Source: a virus. Taken from it: 20,280 nucleotides of DNA. Positions 7,798-20,280 of the stretch are shown piece after piece. The stretch is taken from IMG/VR virus record IMGVR_UViG_3300024259_000183, positions 1 through 20,280 of that record. One strand, given 5' to 3'. The notes under the pieces were generated by a model. The model was not told where the DNA came from. It did no database searches and was given only the letters and a program-made list of their open reading frames with translations. Position numbers and translations under genes: made by a program. Position 1 is the first letter of the stretch; each line of letters begins with the position of its first letter.

Positions 7798-8175
7798 TTA
7801 TTGCATGGTCTTTCAGCCACGTAATGGGTGCATCTCAGCCGTTTCTAATTTCCACACAAGTGACCTAAACTCTTTAAATCAAACCTCTGCATCGTCCCTG
7901 TTTAGATTACGCAAAGAATTAGAAAGTTGGTGTGTGACTGAATGAAACTGTCTTTTACGCTTACCTCTAATCATTTTATCGGTTACAGATTTTAACGATT
8001 TATGCAATTTTTGTAGTTTCGCTTCGTCTCAACTGGCGTTAGCTTTATGCGCCATTTTTAACAAACCAAGATAATCAAAATCGTCACTTCACAGAGCACC
8101 GATTTTATATTTTTTAACCTCATTCAACGCTTGAATTTCTTCTCTAATCATCTCTCTTAATTCTGATTTTTTCAT
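7798..8175 (-). CDS. Small basic protein with LNE-type N-terminal leader (125 aa), four in-frame TGA
   Basis: Start ATG at 8175 after TAAGGAGCCGAG; stop TAA at 7798. The first 19 residues (MKKSELREMIREEIQALNE) nearly match the starts of two other small proteins here, at 13314 and 15393. The leader ends in L-x-E, the cut site preferred by T4-type prohead protease, so I infer packaging into the prohead and trimming after Glu19. The rest is Lys/Arg-rich and helical (KMIRGKRKRQ), which would suit DNA binding or injection. TGA codons at 8089, 8029, 7879 and 7813 (ALWSDD, ASWDEA, EVWFKE, RGWKTM) outnumber the one TGG. Under the standard code only scraps of this gene can be read. The function after delivery is unknown. 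Confidence 0.8.
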
Positions 8176-8184
8176 CTCGGCTCC

Positions 8185-9258
8185 TTATCTCACTACTTTA
8201 AATAATATATTCTCATCATGATATTGTACATTTTCATTCACGGTATCTGCGTCTGTAACCACTTTAATAATCACCCTATAATATCTCTCGGGCTGTAGTC
8301 CATTTGCCCATAGTGTAAAATAATTACCAGTTGAATCACAACTTACTTTAGAATAAGTATCAAATGGAATTATAATGTCTTCCGTGACCGCATCCCTGAT
8401 TGAATAATATGTGCTTCCACTTGGTAATGTATTGACAGTCAAGTTGGCTGAAGATGTAGCTCAGGTTCGGGTTACAAATCTTGGCTTACCAACCACTCTG
8501 AATTTGACCTTTGAAGTTTCCTTTATCTCAGGTTTCAATCCCTTGAAATAAATTACATGGTCTTCAAGCTGAGTTGATGATAACGCTGTTAATGAACCAG
8601 TGCTTCAGGATGAATTGTCCCAAGCAACTTCAAGCTTCGGTGGATAAATTGTATTGGTATCCCTTGAAAAATATTTGAATGTTCCTAAGTGGGTTGTATT
8701 CGCCTCATCAGCAACGCTTCGCTTGACTATGAATCCTTCGTTTGGAACACTTACACTTAGTCAGTTATTTACAATATCAGTTACGTCCATGCGCAAATCA
8801 TTGGAATCTAAATTAAAAGATTGTGAAGCTATATATGTGCTTCCGCTGTACCACAGGCCACCAACATCACTTGAGCCACTAATCCATTCAGAGTTCGGAG
8901 CACGATACCTTCAACTGGCCCCTGCTGTGGTCTGAGGGTCATCAAAATATTGTCCCTGACCCATTTGCCAGCTTTGACTAACTGGATACGCAAATAAGCT
9001 TTGGGTCACCAATAGTCCGCTGGACCCCGCATCATACATATTCAAATAAAATCTTGCAGTTGTTGGTATGATTCCGCTAACAATGGAACTTGAAATCTCG
9101 GACAAATCAAATTTAATGACCGGTCGTGATACGTTAATTGTTGTTGCGGCTAAATTCATAGCCTTCTCAACTTCCAAAATCTCATCAAGTCCGGTATTCA
9201 TGCTTGAGGACGCCTCATATAGTGTTGCGTCTTTATCTGCATACACGAAATATCTCAT
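8185..9258 (-). CDS. Virion structural protein, DNRLRE-like N-terminal domain (357 aa), four in-frame TGA
   Basis: Start ATG at 9258, overlapping the TAA of the endonuclease upstream (TAATG), with GGGAGAG in front. TGA codons at 8911, 8761, 8605 and 8461 (GASWRYR, NNWLSV, SSWSTG, RTWATS) link two pieces that look separate under the standard code; about five TGG are also used. The first ~190 residues (YADKDATLYEASSSMNTG, then RPVIKFDLSEI, RFYLNMYDAG, AYPVSQSWQMGQ, GASW, MDVTDIVN) resemble the DNRLRE/CBM-like beta sandwich seen in secreted and virion surface proteins. The C-terminal part is beta-rich (YRVIIKVVTDAD). It is probably a tail or baseplate component contacting the cell surface. The family assignment is from memory of its pattern. 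Confidence 0.8.
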
Positions 9259-9274
9259 TAGATTCTCTCCCTAA
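9249..9274 (-). repeat. Direct repeat flanking the endonuclease gene, downstream copy
   Basis: On the minus strand it reads TAGGGAG, seven bases, then TAATGAGATATT. It holds the ribosome binding site and first codons of the 357-residue virion gene, and the last codons of the endonuclease. The other copy is at 9917-9939. Confidence 0.7.
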
Positions 9275-9926
9275 TTTCTATAAATTCACACCCAAGCAAA
9301 TTCACAATTTCTTGTTTTCTTTGCATATCGTGTTTTGCTTGCCTCTCATGAAATGGCTCGTAATATTCAATTACCACGTTTTTCTCCAAGTCATATCCAT
9401 CAACTCAATATCCCAACTCTTTAATATGAAATTCCCCACCGTTTTCGGCGTGTTGAAATTTATACCCATGACTATCGCCGTATTCATCTATAACTTTACA
9501 TGCTGATGAATTATAATTTGGATATAATTTTCCATGTTTTTCTTCAAGCCCACGTAATGTACTTACTCTCATTTTAAGTAAGGTTTCAGTAGAATGTGTT
9601 TTGCCACGCATACCAACAGCATTATAATCACCCCTCTTAATAGCTTTACATACGGGGTTATTTTCCCCTCTAACGGAACAGCTTTTAGAACAAAATCTAT
9701 CACCAGTATTGTTTAATTCACGGGGTTCTATATAAAATGAATTATCACAATCTGTAGCTGAACATGTAATATATTTCCCATTTTTAATGCCAACATTCCA
9801 CGGCGTTGTTTCCTTTTTTGAACAGGACAGGCAATCGCTGTTGTTTCTATTAGCTTGATTTACAGAGCTTTGTTGGGAATAAGAAAGTTCAACATTACAT
9901 GAAGGGCAACGGCGGTAATATCTCAT
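9258..9926 (-). CDS. Free-standing homing-type endonuclease, Vsr/EDxHD-like (222 aa), one in-frame TGA
   Basis: Start ATG overlaps the stop of gp6 (TAATG at 9924-9928), and its own stop overlaps the next start. Two zinc-ribbon-like cysteine sets (CPSC...CLSC; C-x5-C...CSKSC) occupy residues ~8-90, and a NUMOD3-like piece (GKTHSTETLLKM) follows. The C-terminal ~90 residues form a nuclease-like domain: DEYGDSHGYKFQHAENGGEF, then DGYD, IEYYEPFH and HDMQRKQEI. It matches the C terminus of the endonuclease at 11907-12593 closely. Glu, Glu, His, Asp spacing suggests the Vsr-like EDxHD homing endonuclease group (family knowledge). TGA 9405 gives GYWVDGYD, just before the catalytic stretch, so standard-code reading would remove the active site. 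Such genes spread by cutting genomes that lack them. Confidence 0.8.
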
Positions 9927-9939
9927 TATAAGCTCCCTA
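9917..9939 (-). repeat. Direct repeat flanking the endonuclease gene, upstream copy
   Basis: On the minus strand it reads TAGGGAG, four bases, then TAATGAGATATT. It spans the end of gp6 and the start of the endonuclease. The conserved ribosome binding site and TAATG are shared with 9249-9274. Confidence 0.7.
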
Positions 9940-11917
9940 CCACTGTTCCGAGAATATCGGTTGTTGCGAATTTAAGTTCAAATATGCTTGGGTCAACGGA
10001 TGGATAAATCACACCATTCTTTGTAGCTGATTTAATATCATATATGTTGCCAGAATATCCAGCAGTTGAGTCTCATTTGCAGAATATCTCAACTGGAAGC
10101 CCAAGCGTTCCATCATCTTTGACCGGTGGAATAACCGAAGCAACGCCATCAACCAATGATAATTTATATGCAATATCCGATATAATAATCGGTTGATTTA
10201 TCTGCCACTCATCAATATCAAAGAAATCCTTGACAACCTCAATACATCTCAGCAACACTTCATTCCTGTTAAAATCTCGCTTGGTCATAATGGAGAATTT
10301 CACACCAATATTAATCACCCATGCGTTTTTAATATTTATTGCATCGGTCACCATACGGTATTGACTCAAATACATTTTCAAATTTTCCTTGACAGCCTGA
10401 TTTAATGTTGTTAATCGTTTGTTGCGGTCAAACCCAAGCGTGTACATGTTCAACGCCATTGGATTTGGAATGCGTGTTGGAATTCTTCCCATTAAACTTT
10501 TAATTGTGTTACCAACATCGTTCTCGGTAATCAGCGCATCGGGATTCGCAATTGCATCACTGCCTTGACTTAGTTGGTCATCCTGTACAAGGTAAACCTT
10601 TGCAATATTTCCATATTTAGCAGGAAGTGCATATGCTCTCACAATGTAATCCGGCTTTGTAACTGCTCGTTGCTGAGCTTGGAAATATGCCATAGCATTG
10701 TTTTTCGCTTCAACAACTGATTCGGCGGATTTGCCACCAACAGCCGCTTCAACATTTATTACATTTACTGAATCCTTCGCATCCTGCACCAACGATGCTG
10801 TTAAATTTTCATCATCTATTTCGTATGTAATATTTGAAATATTTTTTAGCTCACCCTGTGCAGAATTGTCATCAACGCCACCGCCGTATGTATATGTGAC
10901 AGTTAAGGTAGTATTAGATGGTGCCAAGCCATACGCCCGAGTTTTCAAAAAATTTGATGGGTCAAATGCAGTGTCCAAATAACTTGGGCTTCCTGGCAAG
11001 GATGACCCTACAGTATCTGGGTTCGGTACAATCTCTTCATCGGGGGAATCCGAAATACCGGCACCAAATCGTAATTCAGTCTTGTCATCTGAACGGATAA
11101 AAGTTGTGTAGCGTCTTGGTGTTTTCAAGAGCTTTAAAATATATGGTGCATCATCATTGTACTGCACAAGCTCTGGGTCATTGGCAGACGAATTTGACAT
11201 ATCTTGGAAAATAGTATCCTGTGCTAAGAATGGCACTTCATACCAATTGTTTCCATCGCTATCCACAATGCTAAGTATTTCAATTATGTTTGGATTTGCC
11301 AATACGATGTGTCTGTATTTTTCGGCATCACCCACGTTAAAATATTCAGAGGTCTTGTTACCGCTTGTAATGGCAACGGACTTTTTCAATAAATATTTTG
11401 ATGGAATTTTGGTTGTGTCGTCTACTTCAAAAATGTCAATTGACATCGGGCTGTATGAGCTTGAAAATTTAAAATTGCAATCCTCACTGGTTCTGAATAG
11501 CGTGTCATCCGTTGTAGCACGAATTTCTAAATCAGTTATATTCAATGCATAGCGCATATCAGGTCGCACATTGTCAGCGTCCCCAATACTTGGTACAGTT
11601 TGATATACTTCAACGTTTGTGGAAGCCGGTGTGGTCAATTTAGGCTTATATCCAAAGCTTTGGACGGTTTCAAAAACCGTGCGCTTCTCTTCAGCAAATC
11701 CTAATAGACTTTCTTTGAATTGGTTGTCAATGTAGTATGATAATACGTCACCTACATAGGCCGCCATTTCAATAAACATCATACCTGGTGAAGACTCATT
11801 AAAATCATTGTAAGAATCGGGATAATAAATTTTGGCAAATTCAATTAAATTATCTCTGAACGTACCGAAGTCTTTGTTGAGATACCGAATTTCTTTCTGT
11901 ACTTTTTTATCTGCCAT
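9926..11917 (-). CDS. 6: Baseplate wedge protein gp6-like, Baseplate_J family (663 aa)
   Basis: Start ATG at 11917 (MADKKVQKEIRYLNKDFGTF) preceded by GGAGAAGAAA; a TTG 12 bases upstream is less likely. The N-terminal stretch (RDNLIEFAKIYYPDSY, SSPGMMFIEMAAYVGDVLSY) is typical of large gp6/Baseplate_J wedge proteins of T4-like phages. The C-terminal half has the expected KPDYIVRAYALP, GNIAKVYLV and IVRAY-type core. gp6 dimers connect the wedges of the baseplate around the hub. The single TGA, at 10073 (EIFCK-W-DSTAG), adds the last 49 residues; three TGG are used elsewhere. It lies two genes after gp25, as expected, but with an endonuclease gene on each side. The stop TAA overlaps the next start. 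Confidence 0.88.
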
Positions 11918-12593
11918 TTTCTTCTCCAAATTTTATTCTTATAAATTTGCAATTTAATGCTTCTATAATCTCATTCTGACGTTGAATATCTTGTGGTCTT
12001 AATTCGCCACCTTTAAAATGAAACGGCTCATCAACCTCTATTCATACATTGTTTTTAATATCGTATCCATCTGCAAAATACGATAAACCTAAAGGAGATA
12101 TTTCACCTCCGTTTTTAGCGTGTTGGAAAGCATATCCATGTTGCTTACCATATTCATCTATAATATCACATGCTTTTGGATTAAACCCAGGAACAATTCT
12201 TCATCCATTTTCCACACAATCTATATTATGTTTGCGAGCTTCTTCCCTCTTCTTTTCCCGATTAGCTGGGTCAGTATAATATAATTTTACACCTTTGCTT
12301 ATTTTTTTCTTGTGTGAGATTGACAAGACCTTCCCACGTTGTGATTTACCTATTTTAGCTCGTGTTTCTTGTGTTACTTCATGCCCCGTTTTTATTTTAC
12401 TTATTTTTTGTCCCACACTTGGGTGTCGTTTCATGCCAACATGAGCGTTACCTATTTTGGCATTTCGTATGTCATCTTGCGACATGCACTTTTTACAAAT
12501 GCTATCTTTTTTAATCGCTCTAAGATAATTGGAACGGTTCGCATACCGAATTTCACAGGTACATTGTTTACAAATTCTAATATTTTCAGACAT
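11907..12593 (-). CDS. Free-standing homing-type endonuclease with NUMOD3-like repeats (228 aa), two in-frame TGA
   Basis: Start ATG at 12593 overlaps the TAA of gp25 (TAATG), and its end overlaps the gp6 start by 11 bases. An N-terminal zinc-ribbon-like pair (CKQC...CKKC) is followed by about three NUMOD3-like units (GMKRHPSVGQKIS, GHEVTQETRAKIG, GKVLSISHKKKIS), which bind DNA in homing enzymes. The C-terminal nuclease domain runs DEYGKQHGYAFQHAKNGGE, FADGYD, IEVDEPFH, QDIQRQNEI, with Glu, Asp, His, Asp in the order of EDxHD/Vsr-like nucleases. TGA 12201 (ENGWRIVPG) and TGA 12042 (NNVWIEVDEPFH) are the only Trp codons, and the second lies inside the active-site strand. Without recoding the catalytic half is lost. 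It is a paralogue of the endonuclease at 9258-9926 in the nuclease half only. Confidence 0.8.
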
Positions 12594-13012
12594 TAATACT
12601 CGCCCGTTTCATATGTCAGTGCAATCTGCTCTGTATTATTTGGATTGAGGGAAATAGAAAACACAAGGCCAACCACTATTCTGTTTTTGTCACGATTGGA
12701 AATATCAACGTCAACACTTTTGATGTCAACATATGGTAATCATACTCCAACCGCTTCACGGATACTTTCTTCCAACTGTATTGCCAAATCCTCTTCGGTA
12801 ATTTGCTCAAATATGTACGAATAAATATCCGCTCCAAAATCTGGCTGAAAAGGTCGCTCACCCTTGATGGTCATCAATAGGTTGCGAATATTGTGCTTTG
12901 CCTGTTCCAAAGTGGTTTTTGTCTGTCTGAACAAACCTTTGTGTGTGCGTCCTAATGGAAAAGACAACCCAATTCAAGTATCAGGATTTAAGTCGTTTTC
13001 TCTTGCTCCCAT
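12593..13012 (-). CDS. 25: Baseplate wedge protein gp25-like (139 aa), two in-frame TGA
   Basis: Start ATG at 13012 (MGARENDLNPDT-W-IGLSFPLG). The middle carries the gp25 family signature: TKTTLEQAKHNIRNLLMTI, KGERPFQPDFGADIYSYIFEQ. The C-terminal part (VDVDISNRDKNRIVVGLVFS) matches the usual strand-rich end, and the length fits the family. gp25 is the small wedge component that contacts the tail tube and sheath. TGA at 12974 and 12740 (AVGVWLPYVDI) are its only Trp codons; the second rescues the last 48 residues of the fold. The stop overlaps the start of the endonuclease downstream. An upstream AAAGGGAAAAC serves as ribosome binding site. Confidence 0.9.
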
Positions 13013-13026
13013 TTTAGTTTTCCCTT

Positions 13027-13314
13027 TTAATTATTCTTGTATTCGGGGTCAAGTTTTTTCATCTGTATCAATTCATCCCTGACCAATTCTCTATCCACGG
13101 AATCTCCACCACCCCACTCATACGTCGGGTTATTTTTTAACAATGATGCGTATGCCAAATTAATATCCCTCAATTTGAAAGTTCTTTTTTTCTTATCTGG
13201 ATATAGTCCTTTTGGTCCATAAAAGGAATTAAAATATTTAACAAAACTCTGAGTTACTTCATTCAAAGCTTGAATCTCTTCTCTAACAATCTGTCTTAAT
13301 TCTGATTTTTTCAT
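13027..13314 (-). CDS. Small protein with LNE-type N-terminal leader (95 aa)
   Basis: Begins MKKSELRQIVREEIQALNE, nearly the same leader as the small proteins starting at 8175 and 15393, followed by a different body (VTQSFVKYFNSFYGPKGLYP, LRDINLAYASLLKNN). I infer a capsid-targeting leader cut after Glu19 by the phage prohead protease. Its start overlaps the stop of the gene upstream (TAATG), with AGGGA about 8 bases before the ATG. One TGG, no TGA. The body is Lys-rich and otherwise unrecognised. Confidence 0.78.
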   Translation of the reverse strand: MKKSELRQIVREEIQALNEVTQSFVKYFNSFYGPKGLYPDKKKRTFKLRDINLAYASLLKNNPTYEWGGGDSVDRELVRDELIQMKKLDPEYKNN

Positions 13315-13868
13315 TAAATTTTCCCTGCTTTTCTATCTGTTATTTGCTTACTTTTATTTAAAACATCGCTATAATTGCGAACCAAATTATTTCTTACACC
13401 TTCAGGAACATCATCAACATTTACACCTTGACTCTTGATGGTTTGTACTGCACCAATTTCTAATTTTGTCTTAGCGTCCAATTCACCGCCATATTGTTCA
13501 CGCAATGCTTCTGTTACTTCTGTGGGCATAACACTTGCCCCTGGCATTCCGTCACCTTGTGGGATGCCGCCTTCAGTACTATTTAGAATTGAATTTAACA
13601 TTGGGTCTGAAACATAATCTATATCTGTTTTTTGTCTTGGTGGCATCGTTTCTTTGGCAATTCCCTCAGTCATCGTTACCGGTGGTTCCATTCCTGCAAA
13701 ATTTGTTGGTTGAGAGGTAGGCGCATTGAACAATGCTTCTTTTCCCTTATTAATAAATATCTCTGTAAGCTGTTTTTGTACGGCTAAATCAACTTGTTTT
13801 TTGATTGAACCTCGCATTTCTTTCTTTACAACTTCTCTGATAAGTGCAATTAATTCTGTCTTTTTCAT
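13314..13868 (-). CDS. Phage protein with MKKTEL leader (184 aa), function unknown
   Basis: Start ATG at 13868 after AAAGGAAAATAAA. The first residues (MKKTELIALIREVVKKEM) look like a diverged form of the MKKSEL leader used by the three small proteins here, but lack the clear LNE ending; QLTE near residue 35 and MTE near 66 are other possible protease sites. A helical segment (IKKQVDLAVQKQLTEIF) is followed by a Pro/Thr/Gly-rich linker and a helical C terminus (GVRNNLVRNYSDVLNKSKQ). It contains no Trp. I do not recognise the family. A scaffold or prohead-associated role is possible from the leader and position but not shown. Confidence 0.72.
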   Translation of the reverse strand: MKKTELIALIREVVKKEMRGSIKKQVDLAVQKQLTEIFINKGKEALFNAPTSQPTNFAGMEPPVTMTEGIAKETMPPRQKTDIDYVSDPMLNSILNSTEGGIPQGDGMPGASVMPTEVTEALREQYGGELDAKTKLEIGAVQTIKSQGVNVDDVPEGVRNNLVRNYSDVLNKSKQITDRKAGKI

Positions 13869-13884
13869 TTTATTTTCCTTTATT

Positions 13885-14244
13885 TTATTGTGTTCTAAAA
13901 ATTTCTAACTGTTCAAGAATGATGGCCTCATCCAAATCAAATGTAACGTCACCATCAATTGCTCCAAGGATTTCACCATCCTCAACGAATACTATAAACG
14001 GTAATGTCTTGATACCCAACTCAACTGCCAAATCATAATGGTCGTCAACGTTCACATGAATTATTTCAACGTCACTATATTCTGCGCCCAATGAATCCAA
14101 CAATTCCATGCTTGGTAGGCATTCGTCACACCATTCGGCATAAAAATTAACAACAACAAGACCCTCATCGGGAATATCTATGTCTCCTGCAATGGCAAAA
14201 CTGAACAGCATAACCAATGTTATTAATATATTAACGATTCTCAT
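13885..14244 (-). CDS. Exported thioredoxin-like protein (119 aa)
   Basis: Start ATG at 14244, with AGGAG 7 bases upstream. Residues 1-20 (MRIVNILITLVMLFSFAIAG) are a classic signal peptide with a short basic start, a hydrophobic core and A-x-A before the cut. The mature part is a thioredoxin fold: VVNFYAEWCDEC holds the W-C-x-x-C redox site (Cys39, Cys42), and IKTLPFIVF supplies the expected cis-Pro loop. It would act in the periplasm on disulfides of exported or virion proteins (inference). No lipobox is present. The start lies 14 bases inside the end of the membrane-protein gene upstream, so the two are coupled. The Trp of the active site is TGG. Phage thioredoxins are usually cytoplasmic, so the signal peptide is unusual. 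Confidence 0.85.
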   Translation of the reverse strand: MRIVNILITLVMLFSFAIAGDIDIPDEGLVVVNFYAEWCDECLPSMELLDSLGAEYSDVEIIHVNVDDHYDLAVELGIKTLPFIVFVEDGEILGAIDGDVTFDLDEAIILEQLEIFRTQ

Positions 14245-14524
14245 AATATGTCTCCTTAAAGTCTGCAACTTCTTTTTTGAGGTCTTTGTAATCTTCCTCC
14301 AATTCAATATTTGCTTCTTGTAAATCTTTAATCAATTCAGCATATCGGTTGGTTTTCAAATCAAATTCAACACGAGTAACGGGTGGTTTTGGTAAGCCTG
14401 CGGCATCCTTAATGTCGCCAATAATTTTATAATATCCACCGATTCCTAATGATATGACCACAAATATACTAATTAAAAATTTGAGGTTCATACTGATTTT
14501 GGTGTTGTCTCCGATTTCTGGCAC
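14231..14524 (-). CDS. Small membrane protein with coiled coil (97 aa)
   Basis: I choose GTG at 14524 as start because AGGAG lies 7 bases upstream; an internal ATG at 14491 (MNLKFLISIF) has no such site. Residues ~12-35 form one transmembrane helix (LKFLISIFVVISLGIGGYY). The C-terminal half is a charged coiled coil (RYAELIKDLQEANIELEEDY...LKKEV). This layout (one helix, then periplasmic coiled coil) resembles an i-spanin, but no lipoprotein partner gene is embedded. Its end overlaps the exported thioredoxin gene. It could equally be an anchor for that enzyme. No Trp codon is present. Confidence 0.65.
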   Translation of the reverse strand: MPEIGDNTKISMNLKFLISIFVVISLGIGGYYKIIGDIKDAAGLPKPPVTRVEFDLKTNRYAELIKDLQEANIELEEDYKDLKKEVADFKETYYENR

Positions 14525-14534
14525 TGCTCTTCTC

Positions 14535-15074
14535 CTATTTATATCCAACAAAAGGGAACGGGGTCGGCACTGGTCCTGCAGGGCTTGGTACTAACGCCAC
14601 GGTTGACCCGCCGATTGTCAATAGATGTTTCTTAAATGATGAAATCATACCGTCCAAGAAATCATCGTAGTTGTCTGAATTTTTTAATTGTATTGGAACC
14701 GGTGCACCTGGAACCAAAACGGTATTTGATACAATTGTTGTTGAGCTTGGTGGCAATTTAGCCACCGCCGGTGGTGCCCCACTTTTTAATAGTGCTCCAC
14801 TTCAATAGGTTACGGAAGCATTTCCCATAAGTATCGTAGCTGAGGGAACGGGCATTCCAACTTTCATTCCTTCAAACGCCTGTTGAAATATTGCCTCAAA
14901 TAATTTTTTATTGCCTTTCAAAATAGCATTTCCATATACGGCATCGCCGCCGGTCTTTACAGCATTCTCATATTCGGTTGCAAGCTTCTTAGCTAAATCA
15001 GCTTCTGTTTCCGCTTCAAAGGATTCCATATATTTTTTCATATTACTTTTAAACTTGTCTCACTTAATTGGCAT
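14535..15074 (-). CDS. Conserved phage protein, probably virion or assembly (179 aa), two in-frame TGA
   Basis: Starts MPIK-W-DKFKSNMKKYMESF at 15074; ends FPFVGYK-TAG. TGA at 15060 (codon 5) and at 14802 (SVTYWSGALL) are its only two Trp codons, so the standard code would cut the protein in two and lose its real start. The first half is helical and Ala-rich (ETEADLAKKLATEYENAV). The middle has a Gly/Ser/Pro-rich stretch (MPVPSATILMGNAS), and the C terminus is Pro-rich. A similar protein sits near the hub genes in other marine T4-like phages by my recollection; no enzymatic motif is visible. The ribosome binding site is weak (CGGA). Confidence 0.75.
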
Positions 15075-15087
15075 GATTATTCCGTAT

Positions 15088-15393
15088 TTATTTTGGGTTT
15101 ATTAAACGAGAGCCGTCGGGTGATTTTTTGGGTGCTGTCCTCGCCCCACCCTTCACTACAGTTGAACCACCCCGATTGGATAAATTTTTCCTTAAAAATG
15201 TTTCAGCGGATTCCACATTGGGAAATGGACCGTATGCGGTTGCATCATATGGCATTTCATCGTCATCATCATCTGTAACATATGCGTATCAGTTTGAGTC
15301 TTTTGCTTTAAAAATTTGAATCTCTCCTCCAGAACTTTCATTCAACGCTTGAATTTCCTCTTTAATAATTTGTCGTAATTCTGATTTTTTCAT
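15088..15393 (-). CDS. Small protein with LNE-type N-terminal leader (101 aa), one in-frame TGA
   Basis: Begins MKKSELRQIIKEEIQALNE at 15393 (AAGGA upstream), the same leader as the proteins starting at 13314 and 8175; I infer prohead targeting and cleavage after Glu19. The body (IQIFKAKDSN-W-YAYVTDDDDE, YGPFPNVESAETFLRKN) resembles a short domain often met in marine phage proteins with a YGPF...A..FL pattern. The TGA at 15289 gives the only Trp, in a WYAYV strand. The C terminus is basic (VVKGGARTAPKKSPDGSR), which would suit DNA contact. Function after delivery is unknown. Confidence 0.8.
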
Positions 15394-18861: not shown

Positions 18862-19210
18862 TGGTGGAGATGCGCAGAGTCGAACTGCGGTCCGCAACGT
18901 TTAATCAAACAAGTCGTTCACAAGTTTAGTCATTTTCTCGCCGCTACTGAGTTAGAATAATGACAAATCATTCAGGGATTTATACCAATACCTGCGGTGT
19001 TCCAGTTTGAATTCGCTCATACAGTAAAAGCTATCTAATGACGACGTTGATTGCTACTATTAGAATCATAGGTCAACGCTGTGTAGCTTACGCTACAGCA
19101 GGGTATGCGTAGTTTGTGCCAGTTATCTTCTGGTTTTTAGTTTTTAAGACTCACTCTGTCTACTTGCACTTATTATCAAAAATCATCCCGTCGAATACCA
19201 ATACATCCCC
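18862..19210 (-). ncRNA. ssrA: One-piece tmRNA (transfer-messenger RNA)
   Basis: The 5' end GGGGATG pairs with CATCTCC before ACCA at the 3' end, giving a 7-base acceptor stem with a G3-U pair, the alanine identity mark. The T arm is CGCAG-TTCGACT-CTGCG. The 5' region carries the usual TATTCGACGGG. A tag frame reads GTNYAYPAVA-TAA, and its UAA lies in the tetraloop of hairpin TGTAGC-GTAA-GCTACA, as in typical tmRNAs. The tag start (GGC) is inferred. It frees stalled ribosomes and marks their products for decay. tmRNA genes are uncommon in phages. It is one-piece, unlike the two-piece form of most alphaproteobacteria. The tag ends in UAA, which stays a stop under the recoded code. Confidence 0.93.
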
Positions 19211-19499: not shown

Positions 19500-20280
19500 T
19501 TAACCCATTAAGTGCGGCTTAGCTTCAACTTGACCGGCACTTGTTACTTTGATAAAATCGCAATTAGCTTGAAAGGTCTCAATATCCTCAGCACCACAAT
19601 AGCTCATAGCAGATTTCAATCCATCTGTCATGTCCTGAATGATGCGCTTGGCAGACCCCTTAAATTGAACACGAACACTGTTGCCTTCAATGTGAGTTGA
19701 TTCGCCCCTTGCCAATTTGGATGACAATGATGCTGACCCACGATATTCTTTGTATAGCTGTTCGTATGGAAACATGCCTTCTCTATTGAATGCGCCAGGT
19801 GTCTCCTTAGTGCCCGCCAAAAGTGAACCCAATACGACAGTATCGGCTCCTGCTCCGATGGCTTTAGCCATGTCTCCTGGCATTCTGATACCACCATTTG
19901 ATGATAACGGAACATGATTTCCCGCCCAGTATTTTGTAGAATCACCAAGTTCATAAAATGGAGAAGATGCGGAAACACATTCTTGCATAGACGAAATCAT
20001 AGGAATTCCAACGCCCGCTCTAATGCGAGTTTCGCACAGTGAACCGCCACCAACACCAACGTGAATTCCATCCGCACCCCATGTAACTAAATCACGCACA
20101 GCACCTGCAGTCGCAACCGTACCGACAAATAAATCAGTTTCTGGATGATGTTCCTTTAACCACTTCAACATACGTTTAACGCCAATGTGGTGAGCGTGTG
20201 CAACGTCAATCATAAGGATATCAGCACCTGCTTCAATTAATGCGGTGGCTCGCTCTCTGTCGGCTTCCTTGATGCCTATT
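19500..20280 (-). CDS. IMP dehydrogenase / GMP reductase family enzyme, 5' end missing
   Basis: The frame is open to the right edge, so only the last ~259 residues are visible; an internal ATG is not the start. The TIM-barrel signatures are clear: [37 protein letters not shown] with the catalytic Cys, [37 protein letters not shown] and EYRGSASL in the flap. The enzyme interconverts IMP with XMP or GMP. The end AGQVEAKPH resembles IMPDH, but the flap lacks the Arg-Tyr pair I expect there, so GMP reductase is possible. All three Trp codons are TGG. A phage-borne purine enzyme is probably metabolic support for genome replication. It is the most upstream gene seen. Confidence 0.88.

Follow-up and report, generated by a model that had tools for sequence, protein, structure and literature searches.

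Unrelated small proteins of uncultured T4-like phages share a leader with the features of a capsid-targeting propeptide

We analyzed 20,280 nucleotides of viral DNA, IMG/VR virus record IMGVR_UViG_3300024259_000183, and found that three small proteins encoded there begin with nearly the same 19-residue peptide, here called the leader, and then differ. The window is this entire fragment, and capsid genes are not on it. A six-frame scan found exactly three leaders, all on the minus strand, starting at 8175, 13314 and 15393, the same three that an earlier note on this DNA had pointed out. They are MKKSELREMIREEIQALNE (8119..8175), followed by valine; MKKSELRQIVREEIQALNE (13258..13314), also followed by valine; and MKKSELRQIIKEEIQALNE (15337..15393), followed by serine. 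All three end in LNE, and their consensus is MKKSELR(E/Q)(M/I)(I/V)(R/K)EEIQALNE. Any two share 16-17 of 19 amino acids and 87.7-89.5% of 57 nucleotides, in agreement with the likeness at the DNA level that the note had described. The 120 nucleotides directly after the leader are only 25-33% identical among the three genes, which is the chance level. That is, the similarity of the three proteins ends with the leader, as had also been claimed. Upstream of each start is a purine-rich sequence resembling a Shine-Dalgarno site (AAGGAG, GGGAAA, AAAGGA).

Two of the three proteins are complete only if TGA is read as tryptophan; without this reading they appear truncated. In the standard code, the open reading frames (ORFs) beginning at 8175 and 15393 run for 28 and 34 codons before a TGA stop. 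With TGA open, the part of the first protein behind the leader (its body) comprises residues 20-125 plus the stop (7798..8118), with in-frame TGA codons at 8091, 8031, 7881 and 7815, and the body of the third comprises residues 20-101 plus the stop (15088..15336), with TGA at 15291. The second body, 76 amino acids plus the stop (13027..13257), belongs to the phrog_7799 / cyanophage T4-GC 82 family. The proteins are thus 125 (8175-7798), 95 (13314-13027) and 101 (15393-15088) amino acids long.

As judged by its sequence, the phage reads TGA as tryptophan throughout. Many genes in the window are interrupted by TGA, with 26 in-frame TGA codons. When these are opened, ORFs for gp5-like, gp25-like, gp6-like, PKD-domain and homing-endonuclease proteins become continuous and end in TAA or TAG, and the score of the gp25-like protein against its PHROG rises from 53.6 bits (standard code) to 82.6 bits. 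In conserved genes of recoded relatives, 146 of 204 TGA positions aligned to tryptophan in standard-code homologues, the rest mostly to tyrosine or phenylalanine, and TGG codons gave the same pattern. The window itself offers a small sample, 38 positions, among them 10 tyrosine, 6 phenylalanine and 6 tryptophan. Several relatives also use TGA as tryptophan, including G005 (140 kb), in which no suppressor tRNA for TGA was seen. Reassignment of a stop codon is already a reported trait of phages; here TGA encodes tryptophan (code 4) within a T4-like group.

The leader is not confined to the window. A degenerate DNA pattern, itself containing L-N-E, matched 66 IMG/VR stretches, and these matches, their neighbours and further searches together gave 185 non-redundant leader ORFs from IMG/VR phage contigs, with as many as 13 in one 19-kb stretch. 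The bodies behind the leaders are mostly unrelated to each other, and most had no family in scans of Pfam, PHROGs and NCBIfam. In an alignment of 74 members, hardly any variation is seen at K2, K3, S4, L6, I10, E12, E13 or the terminal E. We considered the possibility that the leader is a known domain and rejected it, as no Pfam, PHROG or NCBIfam model matches more than two of the 74 members and none describes the leader. The string MKKSEL was in no paper found by a literature search. The leader is apparently a widespread module, undescribed so far.

There is also a second, short class of leader in this phage group (MIKLIDLLKE and similar), found at 57 N-termini vs 1.7 in shuffles. Among phage records, megablast found no close match, and leader-like N-termini, all distant, were limited to a 484-kb uncultured phage and Flavobacterium phage immuto. 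The immuto protein, MKKSQLREIIRKELQGYSNY, lacks LxE at the expected place, and we found no virion proteomics for it. The leader pattern had no exact match in bacterial and archaeal genomes, so no host can be read from it.

The end of the leader is a candidate cut site. The motif [LIVMF]xE occurs at residues 16-25 in 175 of the 185 leaders (at 16-21 in 172 of these), compared to an average of 48-49 and a maximum of 68 when the leaders are shuffled. This result is not an artifact of the LNE in the search pattern: after dropping all leaders that fit the pattern, the motif was present in 122 of 132 (shuffle maximum 48), and after also dropping every leader with LNE, in 96 of 106 (shuffle maximum 38). 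In leaders with other endings, the residue before the terminal glutamate (P2) varies freely (K, S, N, T, Q, F, A or D). The position of the motif is mostly 16/17 or 19/20, a spacing of one helical turn; helix length and P2 vary, and the [LI]xE end is retained. At the first residue after the predicted cut (P1'), alanine is enriched (34 vs 9.6 expected), as is serine (21 vs 11), and lysine is depleted (9 vs 23). For the first leader of the window, the scan and a logo of the family place the predicted cut after Glu19. The candidate motif is the published specificity of gp21, the prohead protease of T4, L/I-X-E (PMC9026906).

Relatives that carry head genes have a protease of this kind. The S77 prohead protease (PF03420) was found in 12 of 12 records with a Gp23 capsid gene in a first set and in 8 of 8 records of a second set, which included carriers of the long ORFs described below. 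The S77 proteases of relatives conserve GELDHP and GISSRG. All nine compared have [VML]xE|[SG] near the C terminus, parallel to the known C-terminal processing of T4 gp21. In relatives, the major capsid protein matches T4 gp23, and its prodomain ends in LLENQA(K/R)QL(V/I)xE|(S/A/T), in which only x is free. As checks, the earlier note had named a gp21-like protease in the genome and the same cut motif in the major capsid and scaffold proteins. The protease is present in every record tested from a relative with a capsid gene and is not seen in the window itself; the capsid motif, QL[VI]xE|[SAT], stands at the place equivalent to the gp23 site, in relatives only.

Motifs of the same form occur where bodies are joined to other sequences. 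All three bodies from the window have homologues without the MKKSEL leader, within longer ORFs, and these start at a different site of the LxE type, in most cases [LI]NE. The homologue of the 8175 body in L184 begins after DESINE|AKRYKLG, and that of the 15393 body in L154 after GLLNE|SMSRW, where LNES is kept and the sequence upstream is unrelated. Homologues of the 13314 body begin at AHLNE|MDYRG (L141), KESLQE|NLLSF (L142), NFIE|SELKE (L098) and AIITE|DFKD (L057). We examined 46 places, partly related to each other and covering all three window bodies, at which homologues of leader bodies lack the helical leader. LxE was exactly at the boundary of the body in 23 of the 46 (50%), where the rate elsewhere in these proteins was 2.3%, and within 3 residues of it in 36 of 46, compared with 14.8%. 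Counted per query family, a site was within 3 residues in 19 of 22. The long ORFs of L184, L142 and L141 are close downstream of the protease gene. L184 has six E[SAT][ILV][NST]E sites; at least three such sites were found in 4 of 1,921 proteins read forward and in none when reversed. In addition, some domains of the long ORFs occur elsewhere as separate proteins with a leader. We lean toward the view that these long ORFs, several of them near the prohead protease gene, encode cargo polyproteins, in which small domains are joined by [LIV]xE (often ESINE or ESVNE). Within the head, cutting by the prohead protease would then yield more than one injected protein per chain.

As a separate observation, a basic domain, KYRAELNKYNRxxGTYGNGDxxDASHKxGKIxGFExxSKNRxRxEKSRLKKE, recurs in head-region ORFs of L184, L142, L098 and L126, sometimes behind a DUF3008-like N-terminal domain.

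The most likely reading is that the leader is a much expanded form of the capsid-targeting propeptide of T4-like phages, with related cut sites in cargo polyproteins. We put the probability of this reading at roughly 80%. A resemblance to the leaders of T4 internal proteins had been proposed in the earlier note, and it is borne out by the conservation of [LI]xE, the preference for alanine or serine at P1', the S77 protease of relatives, the motif at T4-equivalent places in their capsid protein and protease, and the leaderless homologues that start at another LxE. The size of the family, the candidate polyproteins with the same cut motif, and the code that reveals two of the leader proteins are new beyond that note.

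We infer a pathway of scaffold docking, cleavage, packaging and ejection, with effector roles for the products. During head assembly, an amphipathic 14-residue helix (MKKSELRQIIREEI) would attach the new protein to the prohead's scaffold core. Cleavage after the terminal L-x-E by the S77 protease would follow, freeing the mature small protein within the head to be packaged with the DNA and probably ejected into the next host. The leader acts as a portable module, set by recombination before many unrelated bodies. In other relatives the same bodies are strung together in longer ORFs with [LIV]xE between them, and one chain would give several cargo proteins.

The location of the leader genes supports a capsid-targeting function without being a rule. 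In G005, all nine leader genes are in a structural block (3.7-38 kb) that holds terminase, portal, protease, scaffold, capsid and neck genes, one of them directly after the protease, and in G003 most are near head or tail genes. Closeness to head genes as a strict rule is rejected because of G002 and G030.

Several points weigh against a capsid-targeting propeptide. Leader genes are away from head genes in the window, where they are in a baseplate block, in G002 (94-100 kb) and in G030 (37-46 and 104 kb). No capsid gene lies on the window, a 20-kb fragment, nor did we see the phage's own protease there. The cut motif is missing in 10 of the 185 leaders (~5%), and LxE is so short that isolated cases carry no proof. 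We found no virion proteomics for any carrier of the leader. Last, cyanophages and one Methylophilales phage encode the 13314-type body on its own, as a small protein that has neither leader nor LxE, indicating that it is able to act without delivery in the head.

It is possible, though somewhat unlikely, that the leader is cut to yield head-assembly or core factors, like gp67 and gp68, that act only in building the prohead and are not injected. Several leader genes do lie between the protease and scaffold genes, and this motif is also where the core proteins of T4 are processed to small fragments (PMC9026906). In contrast, the bodies seem too varied and too patchily distributed among relatives for core assembly parts, and the predicted ADP-ribosyltransferase-like fold of one body recalls Alt, an enzyme that T4 ejects. 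We consider it improbable that the leader stays uncut and serves as a docking helix, fixing small accessory proteins to the tail, baseplate or another part of the virion. The baseplate genes around the window copies, the distance of some copies in relatives from head genes, and the stronger conservation of the helix compared with the cut site would all fit this idea. An uncut helix would not account for an [LI]xE end retained when the helix is one turn shorter and P2 varies, for homologous bodies that begin at the same motif behind unrelated sequence, or for a motif equal to the capsid and protease sites. It is hardly credible that the shared segment works as DNA or mRNA (a translation enhancer or recombination hot spot) and encodes the peptide only incidentally. 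In favour of this, DNA identity among the window copies is 88-90% and unrelated genes share only this stretch; against it, across contigs the amino acid pattern is kept despite changing codons, with conservative replacements (R/K, I/L/M, E/Q), and the terminal LxE moves with helix length.

The 13314 body was modeled as all-helical with a mean confidence score (predicted local distance difference test, pLDDT) of 90, and this confident model had no match in the PDB. A leader-tagged protein of another contig, L058, had a weak match to Tox-ART-HYD1, below the cut-off; the model of its body, of moderate confidence (mean pLDDT 69), resembles Tpt1/KptA, of the ADP-ribosyltransferase (ART) fold (best E 1.4e-3, probability 1.00, template modeling score ~0.38). 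The same ART-like body was found with the long or the short leader. It parallels T4 Alt, an ejected ADP-ribosyltransferase, a likeness of fold that does not establish activity. Because the internal proteins Ip1-Ip3 of T4 block Type IV restriction enzymes (PMC12373910), anti-defence roles of the cargo are plausible by analogy.

The internal proteins IPI-IPIII and Alt of T4 are the nearest known system. Their capsid-targeting sequences (CTS), cut by gp21, are short N-terminal propeptides on unrelated small proteins; those of the internal proteins are 10-19 residues long and have the motif L/I-X-E, and the first 10 residues of IPIII suffice for targeting (PMC9026906). The set of such proteins in T-even phages is diverse, and its members are identified by their signal sequence (PMC9026906, PMC12373910). 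Our comparison is one of functional motif, not helix sequence. The leaders of the window, at 19 residues, and the motif position in the family agree with the T4 lengths, and relatives of the window phage have, like T4, a gp21-like S77 protease and a gp23-like capsid protein. The differences from T4 are a helix of 19-20 residues (KKSELRQIIREEI), larger repertoires (9 in G005 and as many as 13 in 20 kb) and the second, short leader type. The giant phages phiKZ and SPN3US also have a diverged gp21-like protease, glutamate at P1 and many internal and ejected proteins (PMC9026906, PMC10052503). Their cut segments are mostly discarded propeptides, whereas the segments here are homologous to separately encoded cargo proteins. 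The polyvalent proteins of phages and conjugative elements have several cargo domains per chain, with proposed packaging and proteolytic separation (PMC5512222). Those proteins embed a self-processing peptidase. In contrast, a scan of four long ORFs of relatives, each with several sites, turned up no peptidase domain or family, and the candidate cutter is a separate prohead protease.

The 184-amino-acid protein at 13314..13868 (minus strand), which starts with MKKTELIALIREVVKKEM, had been taken as a diverged form of the leader. We did not accept it: its start shares 7-8 of 19 amino acids and ~54% of nucleotides with the leaders, and [LIVMF]xE is absent at residues 14-26. We found no phage relatives of this protein in searches. 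The neighbouring genes, all on the minus strand, include those for baseplate wedge subunits like gp25 (12593..13012; identified by its PHROG score) and gp6 (9926..11929), both read with TGA as tryptophan. Two related homing-endonuclease-like ORFs (11907-12593 and 9258-9926) flank the gp6-like gene, and their relatives are in head-gene regions of other contigs. By eye, 13885-14307 encodes a thioredoxin-like protein with an apparent signal peptide amid the baseplate genes. An enzyme like IMP dehydrogenase/GMP reductase (PHROG dehydrogenase; 19500-20279) is interrupted by the contig end. The phage also encodes a transfer-messenger RNA (18862-19210, minus strand; ARAGORN; Rfam RF00023, 97.5 bits) with the tag peptide GTNYAYPAVA.

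A recognisable head-targeting tag would allow the injected-protein repertoire of uncultured T4-like phages to be listed from sequence alone. Such listing is hard today because the proteins are small, change fast and have no database families. The tag could also be used to direct packaging, and the bodies behind it would be a candidate set for tests of anti-defence and host takeover. If the cargo polyproteins are real, these phages would, like RNA viruses, obtain many products from one chain, and the processing would take place inside the capsid and be carried out by the prohead protease.

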